Shown here piece by piece: positions 1,878-32,491 of a DNA stretch of 46,151 nt. The stretch comes from a virus. Location: the IMG/VR virus record IMGVR_UViG_3300030085_004566, positions 1-46,151 of that record; one strand, 5' to 3'. How positions within the stretch are numbered: the first letter of the stretch is position 1; each line of letters opens with the position of its first letter. A program made the position numbers and the translations under genes. The notes beneath the pieces were generated by a model, which did not search any database, had not been told where the DNA came from, and worked only from the letters and a program-made list of their open reading frames with translations.

Positions 1878-2029
1878 ATTGCCCCCCATAACTTCACAAA
1901 TATAGACACTTAAATTTTTTTTTATTTTTTTTCTCAAAATAGGGTAGTTTGGTATAGTTCTTGTACCATATATAGTAGAAACAAGTTATTAGAATTTGTT
2001 TACAATAATGAAAATGAAGGAGAACTGAG

Positions 2030-2698
2030 ATGTTCGAAACTATAAAAAAACTCGTAAAATCTTTTATGAGAAAAATAAAGAGTAACAAAGGTAATTCACT
2101 AGCTGAATTCGCAGTTACTACCGCAATGATGGCTACATTAGCTACAACAGCCGCTCCAAAATTTGGTGCAGTTGGTGCAGGAGCTAAAGAAAAGAAAACG
2201 ATGGCTAACATCGATAAGATTCTTACAGTAGCTAACAACTATTATAACCAAACCCTATCTGAAGAAGGAAAAGGTCGTTTTCCAGGACAAGAGAAATATG
2301 ATGTCGCCGTTGGTGGTGTCGATTTATCCGAAGGAGCTTCTACTGATGAAACACTTGAAGCTTATGTTGAAACCGTTCTTGACCAAAAAGTATCTTATAC
2401 AGATGACTTGAGTGAATTCGTATATGTGTTCTCACCAGCAGTAGATGATGATGACGCTTTACAAAACGATTGGATGAGTCTTGAAACATCAGTATCATTT
2501 GATGGTAACTCTGAAGTTGGAGCACTTGACTTCAAAAAAGACTTTGGTAACAATGGTTTAACTTCACCATTTCAGGATGGTTCATACGCTTACCTAATTA
2601 TACCAGGAAGTGGTAGTGGTACATCTGCACAAGCACCTGTTCTTGTCGTAATAGATACTGAGAATCCATCTAAACTTCATAAAACTTTAGTACCTTAA
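2030..2698 (+). CDS. Type IV pilin-like protein with prepilin-type signal (first of two)
   Basis: The 222-residue protein has a long basic leader ending KSNKG, then NSLAEFAVTTAMMATLATTA. This matches a class III (prepilin) signal: Gly at -1 (residue 21), Glu at +5 (residue 26), and a hydrophobic helix of about 20 residues; +1 is Asn instead of the usual Phe/Met. The 201-residue mature part is acidic with a GSGSG loop and no clear Cys pair. A strong SD (AAGGAG) precedes ATG 2030. Processing would require a host prepilin peptidase; none is encoded here. It may assemble with, or interfere with, a host type IV pilus or type II secretion pseudopilus. A different N-terminal transmembrane anchor is the alternative reading. 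Confidence 0.65.
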   Translation: MFETIKKLVKSFMRKIKSNKGNSLAEFAVTTAMMATLATTAAPKFGAVGAGAKEKKTMANIDKILTVANNYYNQTLSEEGKGRFPGQEKYDVAVGGVDLSEGASTDETLEAYVETVLDQKVSYTDDLSEFVYVFSPAVDDDDALQNDWMSLETSVSFDGNSEVGALDFKKDFGNNGLTSPFQDGSYAYLIIPGSGSGTSAQAPVLVVIDTENPSKLHKTLVP

Positions 2699-2725
2699 TA
2701 CACAACAAAACCGAAAGGAAAAACA

Positions 2726-3166
2726 ATGAAGAACATATTAAAGAATACAAGTAAAGGTTTCACATTGATTGAATTAGTAATGGTTACAATCATATTGGGA
2801 ATCTTAGCAGCTGTAGCAATTCCAAGATATCAACAAACGGTTGATAACGCAGAAGCAACTGCAGAGAAAGCATTTGTAGATATGGTATGGGCAGGAGTAG
2901 AACAAGAAGCTTCTGAAAGACTAACTGATACTGGACTTGAGGCATGGCCATATAATCCATTAACAACTATCGGAAGAAGTCGTAACATATCAGTTACACT
3001 ATTCGAAGGAGTACCAGATGAAGATAATGAATGGCAGTTTAGTGTAGATGCAGCTGGTACACCAGCAATCTTTCATCATAGAAGAAATGACGAAATCTAC
3101 TACTACAAATACGATTCATTGACATTTGAGTTAGACGAAGAACCTACACTTTACACAAACGAATAA
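2726..3166 (+). CDS. Type IV pilin / pseudopilin-like protein (second of two)
   Basis: A textbook prepilin N-terminus: a short basic leader ending KNTSKG, then FTLIELVMVTIILGILAAVA and IPRY. The cleavage site is Gly11/Phe12 and Glu16 is the conserved +5 glutamate needed for filament assembly. The mature protein would be 135 residues, short like a minor pilin or pseudopilin such as GspG/GspH, but without a clear calcium-site signature. It follows the first pilin-like gene by 27 bases with SD AAAGG before ATG 2726, so the two are probably cotranscribed. Finding a canonical prepilin in a T4-type virion/late region is unusual; it might decorate or block host pili. Confidence 0.85.
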   Translation: MKNILKNTSKGFTLIELVMVTIILGILAAVAIPRYQQTVDNAEATAEKAFVDMVWAGVEQEASERLTDTGLEAWPYNPLTTIGRSRNISVTLFEGVPDEDNEWQFSVDAAGTPAIFHHRRNDEIYYYKYDSLTFELDEEPTLYTNE

Positions 3167-3171
3167 TTAAT

Positions 3172-3195
3172 GGGGGATTTGAAAATCATTTCCCC
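3172..3195 (+). terminator. Weak terminator-like hairpin after pilin-like genes
   Basis: GGGGGA and TTCCCC can form a 6-bp stem (one G-U pair) with a 12-base loop, followed by TATTTATT rather than a pure T-run. It may attenuate readthrough from the pilin-like genes. The structure is weak. Confidence 0.35.
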
Positions 3196-3205
3196 TATTT
3201 ATTAT
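3196..3205 (+). promoter_or_regulatory. Possible late-promoter element before 3217 gene
   Basis: TATTTATTAT lies 12 bases before the ATG at 3217 and partly matches the recurrent TATATTTAT(A/T) element seen elsewhere. It lacks the leading TA of the fuller copies. Confidence 0.25.
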
Positions 3206-3216
3206 AAAGAGGTATT

Positions 3217-3660
3217 ATGAGATTTAAACTCACAAATGATATTTTAGAAATTATCTTATTTGGATCGATAATGATTACTTTAGGGTTCGTCTTTTTTCAA
3301 AGTAACGAGCCCATTAAAGTGCAAAGTGAACCATCGATTCAAGACTTTAACGAGTATCCATTACAGGCATGGCAAACCTTAGATAGAAAAGGTGGAGAGT
3401 GTGTAAAGGTTCGTTATCGTGTAGAGAAAAATCAAACTCGTCTATACATGATAAATGCTAATGGGAAGAAAGTTCACACACAACCGATATCTTTAAGTCC
3501 ACACAAAGATGGTAGAGATAGAGTAGAAACATATGTTTGGAAACTCTATCGAACCGAGTGGACGGATAAGATACCACCTGGTGAATACTTGATTATAGTT
3601 GGAACAGATTACGATAAATCAGCATCAAGAAATCTTACTCTTGAAATAGATATAATGTAA
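3217..3660 (+). CDS. Membrane-anchored protein with possible Ig-like domain
   Basis: A 147-residue protein with one N-terminal hydrophobic helix (about residues 9-27, LEIILFGSIMITLGFVFF) and a soluble, presumably periplasmic, remainder. The C-terminal half runs KKVHTQPISLS ... IPPGEYLIIVGTDYDKSASR and looks like the final strands of a beta-sandwich of the FlgD-Ig / secretion-tail type, in which a PxGxY turn precedes an edge strand. That is a pattern impression, not a firm family match. SD GAGG precedes the start. Its stop (TAA) overlaps the ATG of the next microprotein. It lies in the cassette with the pilin-like genes, so an envelope role is likely. Confidence 0.6.
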   Translation: MRFKLTNDILEIILFGSIMITLGFVFFQSNEPIKVQSEPSIQDFNEYPLQAWQTLDRKGGECVKVRYRVEKNQTRLYMINANGKKVHTQPISLSPHKDGRDRVETYVWKLYRTEWTDKIPPGEYLIIVGTDYDKSASRNLTLEIDIM

Positions 3661-3779
3661 TGTGGATGCCACTTGTTATAATAACATTAGGTGTTTGTCT
3701 TATATGGGAATTGGACGAAAGACAAACAATAAAGAAATACAAAAAGAAAAAGAAAATTGAACAACGAGAGAAAAAATGA
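3660..3779 (+). CDS. 39-residue single-pass basic membrane microprotein
   Basis: ATG at 3660 overlaps the previous stop (TAATG), and the TGA at 3777-3779 overlaps the next ATG (ATGA), so it is linked to both neighbours by translational coupling. The peptide has a hydrophobic segment (PLVIITLGVCLIWEL) then a strongly basic tail rich in Lys (KKYKKKKKIEQREKK), i.e. a single membrane helix with a positively charged cytoplasmic end. Such small proteins in phages include spanin- or holin-associated components and membrane-modulating peptides, but no specific family is recognised. Confidence 0.6.
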   Translation: MWMPLVIITLGVCLIWELDERQTIKKYKKKKKIEQREKK

Positions 3780-4372
3780 GATACTTACCTTTATTATTAG
3801 CAAGTGTTATATATTCACAAGATATTCAAAGAACCTCTGAGTTCAAACGAGATGTTGCGTATGGACAAGATTGTGATGATACAGAATACAGAGATTATAA
3901 GGGTTCACCTGCTTGGAAAGGTTATGGTGGGTGGTTATCTGAATGTGATTCAATCCGTTCTGTAAATTTAGATAGAGAGTTTGCTGAAAGGGCTAAAATA
4001 AGAAAGAGAGAAAAGGCAATTCAAGATAGTATTGATATGGTAGAAATAGAATCTATGGATTTAGATTTAGATGCTATGTGGGAAAATACGGTATGGGAAG
4101 AAATACAAGATATCGGAGAAGAAATAGTTTACGAAACAGAACAGATAACGGCAGTTGCTGGTGTTCGTGGTGCTGAGGCAGAAGATGAAGCACTTGACCA
4201 TTTATATTACAGAAGAAGTATGAAAGGTTTAGCTCTAATAGATTTACAAAAAGCTTATGGTAAATTGATAAACACAAAAGATAAACTAATTGAAAAAAAT
4301 CCTAATCATCCTAAACTTGAAAAGATAAATAATCTAATTATTCAATTAGAAAATAAAATGAAAAAAGTGTAA
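3776..4372 (+). CDS. Secreted helical protein of unknown function
   Basis: 198 residues with a Sec-type signal peptide (MRYLPLLLASVIYSQ; likely cleavage after Ser14). The mature protein has two cysteines early on (in GQDCDD and LSECDS), a charged middle rich in Glu/Asp, and a C-terminal heptad-like helical region (KAYGKLINTKDKLIEKNPNH onward) likely to form a coiled coil. It is therefore predicted periplasmic. No family recognised. The start overlaps the microprotein stop, so its translation is probably coupled. It could be a periplasmic partner of the membrane microprotein, for example a spanin-like pair, but the lipobox expected of an outer-membrane spanin is absent. Confidence 0.6.
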   Translation: MRYLPLLLASVIYSQDIQRTSEFKRDVAYGQDCDDTEYRDYKGSPAWKGYGGWLSECDSIRSVNLDREFAERAKIRKREKAIQDSIDMVEIESMDLDLDAMWENTVWEEIQDIGEEIVYETEQITAVAGVRGAEAEDEALDHLYYRRSMKGLALIDLQKAYGKLINTKDKLIEKNPNHPKLEKINNLIIQLENKMKKV

Positions 4373-4430
4373 TTCTAACAAAAAACTAACAAAAAAGTCG
4401 TGTTATTTCTAATAATTTAAGATATTTAGT

Positions 4431-4455
4431 ATTGAAAGGTGATGACACTTTCAAT
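4431..4455 (+). promoter_or_regulatory. Perfect 8-bp hairpin in leader of TonB-domain gene
   Basis: ATTGAAAG and CTTTCAAT form a perfect 8-bp stem around a 9-base loop (GTGATGACA), about 30 bases before ATG 4487. No T-run follows, so it is not a standard terminator; it could be an RNA stability or regulatory element, or an operator. A degenerate promoter-like GATATTTAGT lies just upstream (4421-4430). Confidence 0.4.
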
Positions 4456-4486
4456 CAAACTTATCATTTAACTTAGGAGAATACAC

Positions 4487-4813
4487 ATGAAGCGACTAAT
4501 GTGTTTGTTACTAATGGGCATGGTTTCTGCCCAAACAATAACACAATCATACCCGAAACCAAAAGAACCATTCGTTCTAACATACCACGACATTAGAGAA
4601 GATATACTTGAAAAAACGCCACACGGAAAAATTATAGTAGATTTTTATATTAATGAGAAGGGGGAAGTAGAGGATCCAGTTATCATGGATACTTTTAATA
4701 TATCTCTCAATGATGTGGTGTTGGATAAAATAAAACAATCGTCTTACTATCCAGCAACTCAGAACGGAAGGCCAGTCAGGATAAAATATACATTACCAAT
4801 ATTATTTAAATAA
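4487..4813 (+). CDS. Secreted stand-alone TonB C-terminal domain protein
   Basis: 108 residues. A signal peptide (MKRLMCLLLMGMVSAQ, cleavage likely after Ala15) is followed by a short Pro/Lys linker and a domain matching TonB_C: GKIIVDFYINEKGEVEDPVI, then a helix with LDKIKQSSYYPATQNGRPVR and a last strand IKYTLPILF. In TonB this domain sits in the periplasm and binds the TonB box of outer-membrane receptors. Here the N-terminal membrane anchor that couples TonB to ExbB/ExbD is replaced by a cleavable signal, so the protein would be a soluble periplasmic domain unable to transduce energy itself. A plausible role is competing for TonB-dependent receptors, for example to block superinfection; that is inference. 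SD AGGAG is present. Confidence 0.82.
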   Translation: MKRLMCLLLMGMVSAQTITQSYPKPKEPFVLTYHDIREDILEKTPHGKIIVDFYINEKGEVEDPVIMDTFNISLNDVVLDKIKQSSYYPATQNGRPVRIKYTLPILFK

Positions 4814-4960: not shown

Positions 4961-5182
4961 CTATTTACGGAATAAACCCACCAACACCAACAACGCGACT
5001 AATCCAGCGAAACCGGATTCGCCGAATTTATTAATGATTGATGTGAGGTTACCAATAACATTTACACCAAAGACTCCACTTCCGAACAATACTTCACCAA
5101 CGGCTCCTATTGCTACAAAAGATACGAGTAGGTGAACTAAATCGTCCAACCAATCTTTGACTAATGTGATGACTTCCTTCAT
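4961..5182 (-). CDS. Small membrane protein on minus strand
   Basis: The start at 5182 (MKEVITLVKDWLDDLV) is preferred to the in-frame ATG at 5218 because GGGAGA lies just upstream of the former and no SD precedes the latter; this gives 73 residues. There is an amphipathic N-terminal helix, then hydrophobic stretches LVHLLVSFVAIGAVGEVLF and FAGLVALLVLVGLF, ending FRK. Two membrane helices with Gly-rich connection resemble small holin-like or pore-associated phage proteins, but no family is recognised. It is one of only two minus-strand genes seen and has its own TATATTTATT element (minus strand, 5270-5279). Confidence 0.65.
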   Translation of the reverse strand: MKEVITLVKDWLDDLVHLLVSFVAIGAVGEVLFGSGVFGVNVIGNLTSIINKFGESGFAGLVALLVLVGLFRK

Positions 5183-13286: not shown

Positions 13287-13589
13287 ATGCCATACATAAT
13301 AGCAGAACCATGTGTAGGAACTTGTGATACAGCATGTGTTGAGGTTTGTCCAGTAGATTGTATCCACGGCCCATACGACAAAGAGGGTAGAGGTGAAGAA
13401 GCAAAAGTAGATGGGTTTGTCCCAAAAGAAACTGATTCACTTTACATCGATCCTGATGAGTGTATTGATTGTGGTGCATGTGAACCTGAATGTCCTGTGG
13501 AAGCAATTTTCGAAGAAAGTGAAGTTCCAGCAGAATGGGAAAAATATATAAAATTAAATTATGACTTTTTTGGTAGGGAGATGGGATAA
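13287..13589 (+). CDS. Two-cluster ferredoxin inside the baseplate operon
   Basis: 100 residues with the bacterial 7Fe/8Fe ferredoxin pattern. Cysteines are at 9, 13, 17, 21, 25, 59, 62, 65 and 69: C9-x7-C17-x3-C21-P for the first cluster and C59-x2-C62-x2-C65-x3-C69-P for a [4Fe-4S] cluster; C13 and C25 are extra. The first cluster may be [3Fe-4S]. An insertion (about residues 28-52) separates the two halves, as in ferredoxins of the form MPYIIAEPC. It has a strong SD (AAAGGAG) and its stop overlaps the next gene, so it belongs to the tail operon. Role there unknown: a host-metabolism gene or an iron-sulphur virion component. Confidence 0.9.
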
Positions 13590-27887: not shown

Positions 27888-27897
27888 TATATTTATA
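27888..27897 (+). promoter_or_regulatory. Late-promoter-like element before envelope cassette 2
   Basis: TATATTTATA lies 36 bases before the GTG start at 27934. Confidence 0.5.
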
Positions 27898-27933: not shown

Positions 27934-28287
27934 GTGGACAACCAAGCACAAAGTCTTGTCGAGGGTTTGATAGGACAATATGGTTGGTTATTTTTAGCGG
28001 GAGTATTAACTCTCATATTTCAAAATACCATAAGAGAAGCCGTAGATGGTTTAATGGTTTTTTTAGGTAATGACTATAACGAAGATGATGTCGTTGAGGT
28101 GGATGGAGAACCTGGTAGAATAGTCAGAGTGAGTATGTGGAAAACCGTATTCTTTATTTATCATGTAGTTGATGGTAAAGTAATGGGTGGTTCTAAATTA
28201 GTGGTTGCTAATTCTAAATTAAAAGATTTAAAAATTGAAAAACCACTACCTAATTTAGATTTATCTAAATACTCAAAAAATGATTGA
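27934..28287 (+). CDS. MscS-like mini-protein: one membrane helix plus beta domain
   Basis: GTG start at 27934 with SD AGGAG. 117 residues: a hydrophobic helix (GWLFLAGVLTLIF, about 15-28), an amphipathic segment (NTIREAVDGLMVFL) and then a small beta domain, DDVVEVDGEPGRIVRVSMWK, followed by VVDGKVMGGSKLVVANSKL. In MscS channels the third helix leads into a beta domain with the pattern G-D-V-V-E-V-x-G-x-x-G-x-V and ends with NSKL, as here. The first two membrane helices and the alpha/beta cage are missing, so it resembles a minimal pore-lining helix plus beta ring. It may form a membrane assembly or bind host MscS. Confidence 0.72.
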   Translation: MDNQAQSLVEGLIGQYGWLFLAGVLTLIFQNTIREAVDGLMVFLGNDYNEDDVVEVDGEPGRIVRVSMWKTVFFIYHVVDGKVMGGSKLVVANSKLKDLKIEKPLPNLDLSKYSKND

Positions 28288-28291
28288 AGTT

Positions 28292-28301
28292 GATATTTAT
28301 A
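28292..28301 (+). promoter_or_regulatory. Late-promoter-like element before outer-membrane gene
   Basis: GATATTTATA, one base different from the full copies, lies 32 bases before ATG 28334, directly after the previous stop. Confidence 0.4.
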
Positions 28302-28333
28302 GAGGATAAGAAACGCTATCAATGGAGATAAAG

Positions 28334-29632
28334 ATGAAAAAATTATTAATCGGATTGTTAATTAGTGTAAATCTATTATCAGCCGAGAATGAACTTTGGA
28401 AATTTTTCAAATATTCGACTGCATACGCAAGTTTCAGTCTAAATGCACCAAGACACCAAGATGATAGATTTGCTATTATTGGTGGTCTTAGTACAGGACA
28501 ACTACAAGTTGGTAGAACAGAAAGGGAATTGAAACCAGATTTTCAAACATCATTTGGATTAAGAAAAATTGGTAGATTTAATTATGAACCAAAACGAGGT
28601 GTAAAAAATGCTGGAGTTGGTGGAACTTGGTATGATGGTTCAGAACAAAACGCTAACGAAAGTGCCACACTTGGTCCTGTTAAAGGATGGGAATATCTAC
28701 TTAAATGGTCAGAAGGTAGACAATGGGGAAATGAATATCTAAATCAAGAGTATTGGGTAAGATATACAAGTGATTGGTGGTTGGCTAAAATAGGTTGGAC
28801 TGAATTAGGATTGGAAGATATTGAATATGGTCAAGGTGAGTTAAGATTTAAATGGACACCACCTATTGTAGATGATAAATTTAATTTAAGTATTGGTGTG
28901 AAACACAGACAACATCCTGTTTATGGGTTTGACGCTATGGTATTGGACACCACTTGGTACAAAGGACAATGGTGGGATTTTGCAGAAGATGCTTTTGGTA
29001 TTGATGATAACGCTTGGTTTACTGAAGAATACTACAATGATGGTAATGGTAATCTTGACCAAGACATTCAACTATACGAAATAGATCCTGAAACTGGTGA
29101 GCTTAGAGAAATCGAAGGTGGAGGACCTTTTTGGAATGATGATGGTAGATTTGTCGGAGTTGATTGGTTGTGGAGAGATGAGAATGGAAAAATATTCGCC
29201 TATACAGATAGAGAGTATTTCTTATATCACTTTCCAAGAATGTTAGAAAAGTATATCGGTGGTGTAAAGAAAGATTTAGGATATCAAAGAGAAACATCAA
29301 TTGTAATAGGAGCTGATTTTTATCATTATGATGATTATTGGTGGTTACACGCATGGGGTAATTGGTTACCTTACCATTTTGGACATGATAAATACTCGTA
29401 TCATAACGGAGCACATTATCAAACCCATTTGGAAGAAGGTGGTGAACCTCATAAATTTATGTTTATGGATCCGATGTGGCATAGTTGGCATGACTATGAC
29501 TTTGGTGCTATCTTTGGTGTGAAGATTAAGGATAACTTAGGTGTGTTTGCTGAAGGTCGGTATCTTAATTATTGGGAAAGACCAGCATACGATATTAAGT
29601 TTGGTATGAATTATCAATTTATGGGATTTTAA
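28334..29632 (+). CDS. Putative outer-membrane beta-barrel protein
   Basis: ATG 28334 is preferred over in-frame ATG 28322 because GGAGA lies between them and the protein then starts with a proper signal peptide (MKKLLIGLLISVNLLSAENE; cleavage likely after Ala). About 432 residues. The mature protein is exceptionally rich in Trp/Tyr/Phe and Asp/Gly, with alternating strand patterns, and ends in AYDIKFGMNYQFMGF, a terminal Phe typical of BAM-inserted outer-membrane strands. It would be a phage-encoded porin-like or surface protein, perhaps altering receptors; alternatively a secreted aromatic beta-protein. No specific family recognised. Confidence 0.65.
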   Translation: MKKLLIGLLISVNLLSAENELWKFFKYSTAYASFSLNAPRHQDDRFAIIGGLSTGQLQVGRTERELKPDFQTSFGLRKIGRFNYEPKRGVKNAGVGGTWYDGSEQNANESATLGPVKGWEYLLKWSEGRQWGNEYLNQEYWVRYTSDWWLAKIGWTELGLEDIEYGQGELRFKWTPPIVDDKFNLSIGVKHRQHPVYGFDAMVLDTTWYKGQWWDFAEDAFGIDDNAWFTEEYYNDGNGNLDQDIQLYEIDPETGELREIEGGGPFWNDDGRFVGVDWLWRDENGKIFAYTDREYFLYHFPRMLEKYIGGVKKDLGYQRETSIVIGADFYHYDDYWWLHAWGNWLPYHFGHDKYSYHNGAHYQTHLEEGGEPHKFMFMDPMWHSWHDYDFGAIFGVKIKDNLGVFAEGRYLNYWERPAYDIKFGMNYQFMGF

Positions 29633-29633
29633 A

Positions 29634-30239
29634 ATGAAACACGAAGAAATATATAATAATGTAAGAGTTGTATTAGGTACATTTCTATTATTTGGAATGT
29701 TTATGATACCAAGTTGTGAAGATAACAGAGTAGAAGAACCATTAGAAGAAAGCATTCAAATGTGGGTTAATGGTAGTGAAATTATTGCCCGTGAGTATTA
29801 TGAAAGTATTACTACATATGGTGCTTCTGAAGTACAAGAAGATGGTACTATAAAAAAGATATTCGTACTACACTTCCAAAGGGAAGATGGTAGGGTTACA
29901 CCTGAAAAAGAACATTATGCGTTGATTATGTATGATAACAATGGGGCCGATAACGGACAGCCAATAGATGAAAAACTATATTTAGGTGGTACACAAATGG
30001 ATTCGTTACTATTACAAACAACAAGTGGTAGAATAACATTGGAGATTGTAGGACTATCCGATTACACAGAGTTCTCACAAGCATCAATTGATAAGTATGA
30101 AGATGGTTTGGTAAGTGGTATGGCAGACGGATACTTCTTCAATCCTTACAGAAATCAAATGCAACATGGTGTAATTATTTTTGAAAATTTAGAAGTTGGT
30201 TCAGATCCTGAAGCTACATTCTATCAAGGAGTTTATTAG
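29634..30239 (+). CDS. Putative lipoprotein
   Basis: 201 residues starting 2 bases after the previous stop. N-terminal hydrophobic segment (VVLGTFLLFGMFMIPSC) ends in IPSC, a plausible lipobox, with Cys28 as the lipidated residue followed by acidic EDNRVEEP. The mature domain is a beta-rich protein (IKKIFVLHFQREDGRVT, GRITLEIVGLSDYTEF). Likely a periplasmic or outer-membrane lipoprotein working with the barrel protein upstream; phage lipoproteins often mask receptors, but that is inference. Confidence 0.65.
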   Translation: MKHEEIYNNVRVVLGTFLLFGMFMIPSCEDNRVEEPLEESIQMWVNGSEIIAREYYESITTYGASEVQEDGTIKKIFVLHFQREDGRVTPEKEHYALIMYDNNGADNGQPIDEKLYLGGTQMDSLLLQTTSGRITLEIVGLSDYTEFSQASIDKYEDGLVSGMADGYFFNPYRNQMQHGVIIFENLEVGSDPEATFYQGVY

Positions 30240-30249
30240 GAGAAAAAAT

Positions 30250-30381
30250 ATGAGAGAGTGTGAATGTCACGATTGTCAATGTGAATACGCATGTGAATGT
30301 GGATGTTGTTGTGAATGTGATTGTGAAGTATGTGCATGTGTAGTAATTTGTGAATGTGAGTGTTGTAAGGAAAATGAATAA
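30250..30381 (+). CDS. 43-residue Cys-rich metallothionein-like peptide
   Basis: ATG 30250 follows SD AGGAG; an in-frame extension to 30196 runs into the upstream gene and lacks a ribosome site. 17 of 43 residues are Cys, in CxC, CC and CxxC patterns (C4, C6, C9, C11, C15, C17, C19-21, C23, C25, C28, C30, C34, C36, C38, C39), with Glu/Asp between and one His. There is no signal peptide and only one aromatic residue (Tyr13), as in metallothioneins. This implies thiolate metal binding (Zn, Cu, Cd or FeS). Its stop overlaps the next start (TAATG). Not alignable by eye to a named metallothionein family. Confidence 0.7.
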   Translation: MRECECHDCQCEYACECGCCCECDCEVCACVVICECECCKENE

Positions 30382-30980
30382 TGGCAGAACAAGCAATGAC
30401 AGAACAAGGACAAAGATTAGGACAATTATTATTAGATAGTGATGTCATCACTAAGAGACAGCTGGCCAAGGCCATTCAAAAACAAGTAGCTGGTGATAAG
30501 AGAAAAATAGGAGAGATATTAATCGAGTTAGGATTCTGTACAATAGAAGATTTAACAGACGCGATGTTAGATACACATCACGAAGAAAAAGAAAAAGTTG
30601 TAGAGGAGAAACAAGTGGCAACAGAAATAAGTGAAGAAAAAGTATTGGGTACTAAGTTCACATTATCTGTACAAACAATGATTGCAGCTGGTACTGGTCT
30701 GGCATCATTGATTGGAATGTGGTATGCATTACAGGCAGACATACAAGAAGCAAAAGAACTTCCAAGTTTAGAAAGTCTGTATCAAGCAGAGTATCCATCG
30801 AGACCTGAGGGTTATAATTGGCCAAGGTCTTACGAACAATACAAAGACCAAGTAGGTTCATTACAAGAAGATATGGATGATGTATATGATAGATTGGATG
30901 AATACGAAGAAAAAATTGAAGAACTTGAGAGACTTGTAGCAGATTTACGAGTTGAAGTGGCAAAAAAGAGGAATAAATAG
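30381..30980 (+). CDS. MshEN-domain membrane protein with coiled coil
   Basis: 199 residues. Residues about 10-65 match the MshEN/T2SSE N-terminal domain of type IV pilus and type II secretion ATPases: RLGQLLLDSDVITKRQLAKA followed by IQKQ, then KIGEILIELGFCTIEDLTDA. These two similar half-motifs are those used for c-di-GMP binding in MshE-like proteins; one Gly of the first half is Asp here. A single membrane helix (about 97-116) follows, then a segment PSRPEGYNWP and a C-terminal coiled coil (about 155-197). No ATPase domain. The stand-alone sensor suggests interference with, or sensing of, host c-di-GMP signalling. Coupled to the Cys-rich peptide. Confidence 0.72.
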   Translation: MAEQAMTEQGQRLGQLLLDSDVITKRQLAKAIQKQVAGDKRKIGEILIELGFCTIEDLTDAMLDTHHEEKEKVVEEKQVATEISEEKVLGTKFTLSVQTMIAAGTGLASLIGMWYALQADIQEAKELPSLESLYQAEYPSRPEGYNWPRSYEQYKDQVGSLQEDMDDVYDRLDEYEEKIEELERLVADLRVEVAKKRNK

Positions 30981-30982
30981 TT

Positions 30983-31423
30983 ATGAATTACGAAAAGACA
31001 ATTGGAATTATTTTCAAAACATTATGTGTTATGGGATTGACATTTATATTATGTGGAAATGTTGTAAATGGTCAAGACAAAAAATCAAAGGTAGAGGTTA
31101 TCAACGATGATAACTTTAAGAAAAAAGTGGCAAAAGGATTTGTTCTTGTAAAATTCACATCAGGATATCAGATGTCTAATTTCGATAAAAAGTTATTTGA
31201 TGGAGTTGGTGGATTCGAAGGTTGTGTTATAGTCGAAGTAGATGCTGGAAATGCAAGAAAAGTAATAAAAAAACTTAGAATCAGAAACTACCCATCATTA
31301 GCATTATTTCACAATGGTAAGAAAAAAGAAGTTTGGAAGGCAGATATGGATGGTAAAGTTGATGTCAATAACAAGGGAATCAAAAAGGCCATATCAAACG
31401 CGATAGCAGGTGATGTATTTTAA
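30983..31423 (+). CDS. Exported thioredoxin-fold protein without CxxC
   Basis: 146 residues, SD GAGG. A hydrophobic N-terminus ends VVNGQ, giving a likely signal peptide or anchor. The mature part fits a thioredoxin fold: FVLVKFTSGYQMSNFDKKLF (where a WCxxC motif would be), VIVEVDAGNARKVIKKLRI, RNYPSLALFHNGKK with the conserved cis-Pro loop, and a final helix. The catalytic cysteines are replaced by S-G-Y-Q-M, so it cannot act as a thiol oxidoreductase; it is more likely a binding or chaperone module in the periplasm. Confidence 0.72.
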   Translation: MNYEKTIGIIFKTLCVMGLTFILCGNVVNGQDKKSKVEVINDDNFKKKVAKGFVLVKFTSGYQMSNFDKKLFDGVGGFEGCVIVEVDAGNARKVIKKLRIRNYPSLALFHNGKKKEVWKADMDGKVDVNNKGIKKAISNAIAGDVF

Positions 31424-31426
31424 TGT

Positions 31427-32083
31427 ATGAACATAGCAACAATAGCTGGACACTTGGCGTTTGGATTAATCGCCTTTTCATTTTTAGTAAAGGATATTCT
31501 ATATCTTAGAATCCTTTCAATATTAGCAAGTTTATTTTCAGTATTTTATAATTTTTACATTCCACTTGAACCAATGTGGCTTCCAATAGGATGGAATCTT
31601 GTTTTTGTAGTTGTAAATTTATACCACATAGCGATTATTATATATGAAAAGCGTCCTGTTCATATGGATGACAAAAATACAGAATTATACGAAACTTTAT
31701 TTAAAGAATTAACACCAGTAGAATATTTGAAAATTAGTAAGGCTGCAATTTGGAAAAAATTTAAGCCAGAAGAATTTCTTACAAAACAAAAACATCTTGT
31801 ACCAGATTTGGTACTAATTTATAATGGTACAGTAAATGTATTTGTAAATGGTAAAAAGGTAGCAGAATTAAAAGATGGACAATTCGTAGGTGAGATGTCC
31901 TTTCTTACAGAAAAAGCAGCAACTGCAACTTGTATTGTAAAACATCCTTGTGAATGTTTAGTTTGGAAACAAAGGGAGTTTAAAGAATTGTTAAAACGAA
32001 ACCCATCATTATATTTTACCATTCAATCTTTATTGAGTGCACAAGTTTCAAGTAATCTTGTAAGTAGTTCAAAATCTGAATAA
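31427..32083 (+). CDS. Popeye-like membrane protein with cyclic-nucleotide-binding fold
   Basis: 218 residues. About 75 N-terminal residues form three hydrophobic segments (IAGHLAFGLIAFSFLV, YLRILSILASLFSVFYNFYI, IGWNLVFVVVNLYHIAIII), followed by an amphipathic connector and a cNMP-binding beta-barrel at about 105-205: LVLIYNGTVNVFVNGKKVAE, LKDGQFVGEMSFLTE, ATATCIVKHPCECLVWKQRE. This is the layout of bacterial Popeye-like proteins. The phosphate-binding cassette has GEMSFL but lacks the usual Arg before the following Ala, so ligand binding is uncertain. It is next to the MshEN protein, so two cyclic-nucleotide-sensor folds are adjacent. Confidence 0.78.
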   Translation: MNIATIAGHLAFGLIAFSFLVKDILYLRILSILASLFSVFYNFYIPLEPMWLPIGWNLVFVVVNLYHIAIIIYEKRPVHMDDKNTELYETLFKELTPVEYLKISKAAIWKKFKPEEFLTKQKHLVPDLVLIYNGTVNVFVNGKKVAELKDGQFVGEMSFLTEKAATATCIVKHPCECLVWKQREFKELLKRNPSLYFTIQSLLSAQVSSNLVSSSKSE

Positions 32084-32085
32084 TC

Positions 32086-32095
32086 TATATTTATT
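32086..32095 (+). promoter_or_regulatory. Late-promoter-like element directly before 32099 gene
   Basis: TATATTTATT ends only 3 bases before ATG 32099. If it is a -10-type element, the transcript would start in or near the start codon and be leaderless for this gene; alternatively translation starts further downstream. Confidence 0.35.
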
Positions 32096-32098
32096 ACT

Positions 32099-32491
32099 AT
32101 GTTAAAACTTAAAGACCTACTCGTAGAAAGAATTGATTACCAAGATACTGCTAAAATGTTAGTAAAACATTACGGGCTCCGTTCTAAGGTAAAATTTGGT
32201 AAAGTCAAAGGACAAAACGAAGCAGACTATGATTGGGTAAAGGATGTTATAAATTTAAAACGAAACTATCCAAATGTCAAAGAATTTATTGTTTCAGTAT
32301 TACATGAAATAGACCACGCAAAGATGAGATATAAAATGGGTGCTAAAAAGTATGAGTGGGAATACACTAAGGCAGGTCAAGAGGCATTAGAAAAGGGTGG
32401 TGATTTCCACGATGATAATTTTTACGAAGAACAGGCAGAACGATGGGCACAAGACGAATATAGAAGAAAATGGAAGCGAAAATTTAGATAG
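32099..32491 (+). CDS. HExxH metallopeptidase-like protein
   Basis: 130 residues. H69-E-I-D-H73 in VSVLHEIDHAKM is an HExxH zinc motif, with EEQAERWAQDEY downstream able to give the third ligand (Glu near residue 110). The size and the short spacing recall ImmA/IrrE- or SprT-like minimal domains that are common in phages. The N-terminus MLKLKDLLVERID is the kind of short leader found on several T4-type phage proteins. Substrate unknown. Residue 34 onward (FGKVKGQNEADYDWVKDVIN) forms the preceding strands. An internal ATG at 32156 would still include the zinc motif. Confidence 0.68.
   Translation: MLKLKDLLVERIDYQDTAKMLVKHYGLRSKVKFGKVKGQNEADYDWVKDVINLKRNYPNVKEFIVSVLHEIDHAKMRYKMGAKKYEWEYTKAGQEALEKGGDFHDDNFYEEQAERWAQDEYRRKWKRKFR

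Follow-up and report, generated by a model that had tools for sequence, protein, structure and literature searches.

Conserved Envelope Genes of a T4-Like Virus Lineage and Their Possible Link to Host Type IV Filaments

Genes of the Cassette

We analyzed seven consecutive genes, named A to G, in the virus record IMGVR_UViG_3300030085_004566. The stretch of DNA that was analyzed, referred to as the window, comprises 46,151 bases out of the 47,819-base record and carries T4-like virion and replication genes. It encodes gp25 (Pfam, 2.8e-11), a gp6-like baseplate protein, a primase, and a gp46/47-type SMC plus phosphoesterase protein. The baseplate protein matches Microcystis phage Mel-JY01 at 44% and Flavobacterium phage immuto at 40%. 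The cassette consists of the following genes:

27934 to 28287, plus strand: gene A, minimal MscS with one kinked transmembrane (TM) helix and a beta domain; GTG start (MS_channel_2nd, AlphaFold, Foldseek)
28334 to 29632, plus strand: gene B, signal peptide and outer-membrane beta-barrel, the anchor gene of the module (Foldseek, Shine-Dalgarno site, ratio of nonsynonymous to synonymous substitution rates, dN/dS)
29634 to 30239, plus strand: gene C, predicted lipoprotein, fast evolving (signal sequence and invariant Cys)
30250 to 30381, plus strand: gene D, Cys-rich micro-peptide of 43 amino acids (aa); ATG with AGGAGAA Shine-Dalgarno site (enrichment, dN/dS)
30381 to 30980, plus strand: gene E, MshEN domain of the cyclic di-GMP (c-di-GMP) type, probable TM helix, and coiled coil (NF053729, PilF and PilB structures)
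30983 to 31423, plus strand: gene F, exported thioredoxin fold without the active-site Cys pair (Pfam, profile search, CxxC survey)
31427 to 32083, plus strand: gene G, three TM helices, Popeye and cyclic-nucleotide-binding domain (Pfam)

All seven open reading frames (ORFs) proposed in an earlier, sequence-only reading of this DNA are present on the plus strand at 27934-32083. The spacing given there, from a 1-base overlap to about 46 bases, is exact: the measured gaps from A to G are 46, 1, 10, -1, 2, and 3 nucleotides (nt), followed by 15 nt to the next gene. The protein labels also hold, as judged from AlphaFold and Foldseek, Pfam, NCBIfam, signal-sequence, and conservation evidence. Metal and nucleotide binding by the cassette proteins is putative. 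No RNA element under the cassette was matched in Rfam.

A Fixed Core in Relatives

Loci from the virus collection were picked by E or F alone and then checked for the other genes. In E-selected loci, B was found upstream in 58/58 and F was the next gene in 61/61; in F-selected loci, E preceded F in 58/58 and B was upstream in 54/54, loci from the same or related contigs not being independent in these counts. F directly follows E in all 68 distinct relatives (median gap, 9 nt), and C was recognized near E in 46 of 64. The A-B-E-F unit was also detected in a lineage with a far more diverged B (33% identity), and E relatives occur in at least 532 marine virus contigs. Pairwise dN/dS was 0.06 to 0.2 for almost all comparisons, indicating purifying selection on all seven genes; the exception is C, with values of up to 0.50 against one divergent relative. 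Because dN/dS is low and the co-occurrence of B, E, and F is complete in the relatives checked, the gene arrangement is more than chance. These comparisons indicate that the fixed core is B, usually with C, then E and F, usually with D-like micro-peptides, and that it is one conserved unit.

The earlier reading had treated the seven genes as a set and had suggested checking their synteny in relatives. Synteny is retained for B, E, and F, which are always together, whereas A and G change place. A is located before B in the group of the window and in some others, and elsewhere in many genomes. G is within or adjoining the core in 22 of 69 relatives; it is often elsewhere, mostly beside endolysin or holin genes. 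Thus, the seven genes are not a fixed set.

The mobility of A and G would suit an explanation by independent, host-derived cargo in a permissive region, helping the infected cell with nutrients, turgor, or metals. In addition, chromosomal relatives of G with 49% identity are present in metagenome-assembled genomes (MAGs) of Bacteriovoracaceae. However, B, E, and F co-occur without exception in the relatives checked, which led us to reject random cargo as an account of these genes, and no B homologue was found in a scan of 84,980 cellular genomes. Altogether, the cargo explanation is improbable; it is disfavored for B-E-F and could hold for A and G.

A Prepilin Operon Joined to the Core

In many relatives, the core continues into an operon of the layout P1-(P)-P2-(P)-X-Y-T, encoding two to four proteins with a type IV prepilin motif. 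The nonpilin members are the one-helix protein X, the exported protein Y, and T, an exported protein with a TonB C-terminal domain. Core and prepilin genes are contiguous in several long contigs, arranged as B C E F (G A) P1 P2 X Y T. The series B C E F G A P1 P2 X Y T is uninterrupted in one contig; in another, B C E F P1 P2 X Y T spans the contig ends. This operon had not been connected with the cassette before, and the set as originally listed is thus incomplete. In the window, the pilin operon is separate from the cassette, at 2030-4813. Its features are as follows (the slash marks prepilin cleavage):

1949 to 1965, plus strand: sigma-54-type promoter TTGGTATAGTTCTTGTA before the pilin operon (consensus across relatives)
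2030 to 2698, plus strand: P1, type IV prepilin-like protein, G/NSLAE (E5 prepilin motif conserved; linked to B-C-E-F in relatives)
2726 to 3166, plus strand: P2, type IV prepilin, G/FTLIE (N_methyl, 3.4e-7; GspG, 1.7e-9; Geobacter pilin, 1.6e-14)
3217 to 3660, plus strand: X, one TM helix and soluble domain (conserved order P1 P2 X Y)
3776 to 4372, plus strand: Y, exported protein (operon member, conserved order)
4487 to 4813, plus strand: T, signal peptide and TonB C-terminal domain (TonB_C, 3.2e-11; last gene of the operon in relatives)

The predicted prepilins show the features of this class, a G/xxxxE cleavage motif and a hydrophobic N-terminus, and the motif with Glu at +5 is retained in most family members. 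The promoter consensus TTGGYACRN4TTGYA was found before P1 in 27/27 and 51/57 distinct loci, compared with 0.5 and 0.9 in shuffles. It has the exact sigma-54 spacing (GG-N10-GC), yet its second element is mostly GT, with GC in two listed loci. Clustered TGTNACA-like sites (TGTTACA, TGTAACA, or TGATACA) were also detected upstream of P1 (65 vs. 3.3 expected). The pilA genes of many bacteria are driven by sigma-54, and in type II secretion and type IV pilus pseudopilin operons, several prepilins with cleavage motifs are likewise arranged in a row behind a sigma-54-type promoter. Unlike those loci, the operon described here belongs to a T4-like phage, and no assembly machinery was recognized alongside it. 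Among the window proteins scanned, there was no pilus ATPase, platform protein, prepilin peptidase, or secretin. A pilus motor, platform, peptidase, or secretin was also not noticed in the gene list of one relative genome (G001), which was read by eye, no profile search of long genomes having been made. P1 was not found in 716 genomes (125 Cloacimonadota, 192 Bdellovibrionota, and 399 Pseudomonadota).

Two further features flank the operon. A terminator-like hairpin at 1855-1872 closes the unit upstream of it. On the minus strand at 5009-5182, there is a gene for a small membrane protein (M73 family), which is near A or T in several relatives and could be a holin.

Proteins of the Core

The MshEN domain of E was recognized by the NCBIfam model NF053729 (c-di-GMP_motif) with 46.4 bits versus a cut-off of 38 (2.4e-12), its tandem 24-residue motifs scoring above this curated cut-off. 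Matches to the PilF and PilB structures were obtained at 1.1e-9 and 7e-8. The second motif is less conserved among relatives, and c-di-GMP binding by E is putative. MshEN is the c-di-GMP-sensing domain of some pilus extension ATPases and binds c-di-GMP, and the N-terminal region of the extension ATPase is thought to touch the platform protein PilM (PMC11656802). E shares its domain with the N1 region of PilB, PilF, and MshE. In contrast to these ATPases, it has no ATPase part, and its domain precedes a probable TM helix and coiled coil.

F matches the Pfam thioredoxin family (4.6e-7) and, in a profile search against the PDB, TXNDC5 (6e-19). A CxxC motif was present in 0 of 67 distinct F relatives. 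A role of F as an oxidoreductase was ruled out, since CxxC is missing.

For B, the start codon was examined. The ATG at 28334 is preceded by a GGAG Shine-Dalgarno site, and in a 92%-identical relative a stop falls between this ATG and the upstream one at 28322. For these reasons, B probably begins at 28334 and not at 28322. The features of an outer-membrane beta-barrel found in B are the fold (in a low-confidence model), a signal peptide, and a C-terminal Phe. The Foldseek matches shown for the weak model (pLDDT 62) are mostly outer-membrane beta-barrels (E 5e-7, probability 1.00). The dN/dS of B is 0.07.

C is a predicted lipoprotein of no recognized fold, with a Cys after its signal sequence that is invariant (17/17). 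D is under purifying selection (dN/dS = 0.11). Cys-rich micro-ORFs of 11-43 residues, mostly with a Shine-Dalgarno site, were found beside B in 47 cases near versus 8 far, a rate ratio of 23. Because of this 23-fold enrichment, D is not a chance ORF.

The Mobile Genes A and G

The domain MS_channel_2nd was matched in 10/10 A relatives (best, 5.3e-6). The AlphaFold model of A (pLDDT 73) combines a kinked helix with a beta domain of five strands, and its top PDB matches in Foldseek are MscS channels. Topology, Foldseek, and MS_channel_2nd thus agree on the two parts that characterize MscS, the pore helix (TM3a/b) and the beta domain. A shares these with MscS channels, which additionally have TM1, TM2, and a C-terminal alpha/beta cage. 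With 117 aa and a single TM segment, A has none of the three, ruling out a full MscS.

G scored above gathering for both POPDC1-3 (Pfam, 1.4e-13) and cNMP_binding (2e-14). Its architecture, a membrane region and a nucleotide domain, is that of Popeye-domain (POPDC) proteins, including cellular bacterial relatives; unlike these, G is encoded by a phage, and its gene is linked to those of peptidoglycan hydrolases. A peptidoglycan hydrolase or holin gene is near it in 42 of 69 relatives, of which 30 have an exported SLT transglycosylase, 6 a GH108 endolysin, and 6 a holin with three TM helices (3TM). The six loci with the 3TM holin also adjoin E or F. The canonical phosphate-binding Arg of the nucleotide domain is replaced by Ala in 30/30 aligned phage relatives, and it is also missing from six cellular Popeye relatives. 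Because this Arg is missing, ligand binding by G is only putative.

The PADLOC defense models gave no full-protein match in the cassette; the one partial match is between the G nucleotide domain and Pycsar effectors (PycTIR: PADLOC, 1e-12; PDB, 1.1e-8). This resemblance raises the idea that G works against host cyclic-nucleotide immunity, sequestering the signal at the membrane. The missing Arg speaks against it, and the idea accounts for one gene only. We consider it highly improbable.

Two side observations concern G relatives. In Bacteriovoracaceae-type MAGs, the Popeye-cyclic-nucleotide protein (L159:10001-10690 and L160:9130-9792) is adjoined by a CBS-domain gene in both cases. In the long contigs L267 (1308-2973) and L260, genes for an M107-family small membrane protein, G, and a GH108 endolysin are in a row, which suggests that the Popeye protein is part of a lysis cassette there.

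Transcription Signals Around the Cassette

A promoter-like motif was found at three positions:

27889 to 27896, plus strand: promoter-like ATATTTAT motif before A (motif distribution)
28293 to 28300, plus strand: promoter-like ATATTTAT motif before B (motif distribution)
32087 to 32094, plus strand: promoter-like ATATTTAT motif before the next gene, likely the downstream edge of the unit (motif distribution)

Although non-coding DNA makes up 4.5% of the window, 8 of the 11 plus-strand copies of ATATTTAT are located 12-73 bp upstream of a start codon, well above expectation. Among relatives, the motif was found within 100 bp upstream of A in 64%, B in 45%, virion family s in 49%, and the SLT gene in 52%, compared with 2% for E, none for F and G, and a background of 2.9% per 100 bp. 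The cassette had been proposed to be one transcription unit. The motif distribution argues against this: with one motif before A and another before B, at least two units are likely, and a split into A, B-G, and the next gene is favored. These units are probably of the same class as virion and lysis genes and late, late expression being suggested because ATATTTAT is common to virion and endolysin genes. The T4 late promoter TATAAATA was rejected as a candidate, its window copies being mostly within genes.

Downstream, gene H (32099-32491) encodes a short protein with an HExxH-type motif and stays near the primase gene in many relatives. Elsewhere in the window, a ferredoxin-like gene (13287-13589; Fer4, 2.3e-10) is located amid baseplate genes; only two relatives of it were seen.

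Possible Function of the Module

The link between the MshEN protein E and the phage prepilins directs attention to the type IV filament machinery of the host. We tentatively favor the explanation, at somewhat less than even confidence, that the cassette is half of a phage-encoded host-envelope module acting on or through this machinery (pilus or pseudopilus). The phage prepilins would be processed and assembled by host enzymes. E would be an inner-membrane protein whose MshEN domain faces the cytoplasm. There, this domain may engage the platform to which a host extension ATPase of the PilB or MshE type normally docks by its N-terminal domain, and c-di-GMP could gate the contact. F and the coiled coil of E would act in the periplasm, B and C would form the outer-membrane end of the module, and A and G may be inner-membrane accessories for turgor or signaling. 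The likely outcome would be pili that are replaced, capped, or blocked on the cell surface during infection, and the changed surface would exclude competing phages or alter adhesion and uptake.

A broader version is possible but more doubtful: a T4-like lineage common in marine virus contigs may encode its own trans-envelope type IV filament kit. This kit would comprise prepilins under sigma-54-type control, the MshEN docking protein, periplasmic factors, the barrel and lipoprotein, and the Cys-rich micro-peptides. Driven by the host pilus motor, it would remodel the surface of the infected cell.

Several observations weigh against a function in type IV filaments. The core and the pilin operon have different promoter types. 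Of the 38 relatives having at least 3.5 kb of sequence downstream of E, only 14 have prepilins in the first 6.5 kb, and no prepilin was recognized in the distant A-B-E-F lineage; pilins are thus not an obligatory companion of the core. The presence of pili in the host is assumed. Finally, the ATATTTAT motif before A and B, common to virion and endolysin genes, favors lysis, as do the 16 of 49 relatives that have a holin no more than six genes from E, a count from loci chosen around these genes, with no unbiased background.

The last two points lead to the main rival, a late envelope module that works in lysis together with holin and endolysin. A and G would then act at the inner membrane, G setting the timing of lysis, while E and C would span the envelope like a spanin pair and B would permeabilize the outer membrane. 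This explanation owes its weight to the promoter class and to the holin and endolysin neighbors, including those of G. In addition, E, with a coiled coil behind its probable TM helix, and the predicted lipoprotein C have parts that would match a spanin pair, although membership of E and C in such a pair is only putative. However, the window itself yielded no homologue of a holin or endolysin, and in many relatives a lysis gene is absent within six genes of E. Moreover, B, D, F, and the MshEN domain are foreign to known lysis systems. We consider a lysis module somewhat unlikely.

The composition of the cassette, covering inner membrane, periplasm, and outer membrane, would also be compatible with pilus-independent superinfection exclusion, in which B, C, and F mask or occlude a receptor and E and A block DNA entry. 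Known exclusion proteins act in all three of these compartments. However, the promoter class is likely late, fitting late envelope remodeling or lysis better. The conserved set is also unusually large for exclusion, and the pilin link would be left unexplained, making this alternative unlikely.

Relation to Known Systems

Phage peptides that disable the type IV pilus through PilB or PilZ are known: Tip, Aqs1, and Zip (reviewed in PMC11656802). Like the module that we favor, they are encoded by phages and target the type IV pilus, which they attack at the extension ATPase PilB and its partners. They are single small peptides of temperate Pseudomonas phages, whereas the module described here is multigenic and comprises its own MshEN domain, complete prepilins, and an outer-membrane barrel. 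Phage lysis cassettes (holin, endolysin, and spanins) likewise consist of membrane and envelope proteins, and in many relatives the genes studied here are next to holin or endolysin genes. In contrast to such cassettes, no lysis gene was recognized in the window, and the barrel, micro-peptides, MshEN protein, and thioredoxin fold have no place in them.

A, B, E, G, and P1 had no match in 50,697 named phages, and a near-DNA search of named phages returned nothing. Our literature search found nothing relevant on phage-encoded type IV pilins, phage Popeye proteins, phage MscS, or this gene set, its coverage being limited (few subscription journals). The sequence-only reading had recognized no standard phage module with this set, and this stands: the genes are conserved, undescribed phage genes for both membranes and the periplasm. 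The protein families are already known; the system as such is undescribed, as far as can be judged from the limited literature found, and its function is putative.

The core occurs in at least 532 marine virus contigs, yet A, B, E, and G are absent from all named phages searched. The sigma-54-type promoter predicts a host with RpoN and type IV filaments. If our explanation is true, phages would bring their own pilus parts and an envelope-spanning set of partners, going beyond the use or blocking of pili as receptors. The control that these uncultured phages exert over the surface of the cells that they infect would thereby become testable.

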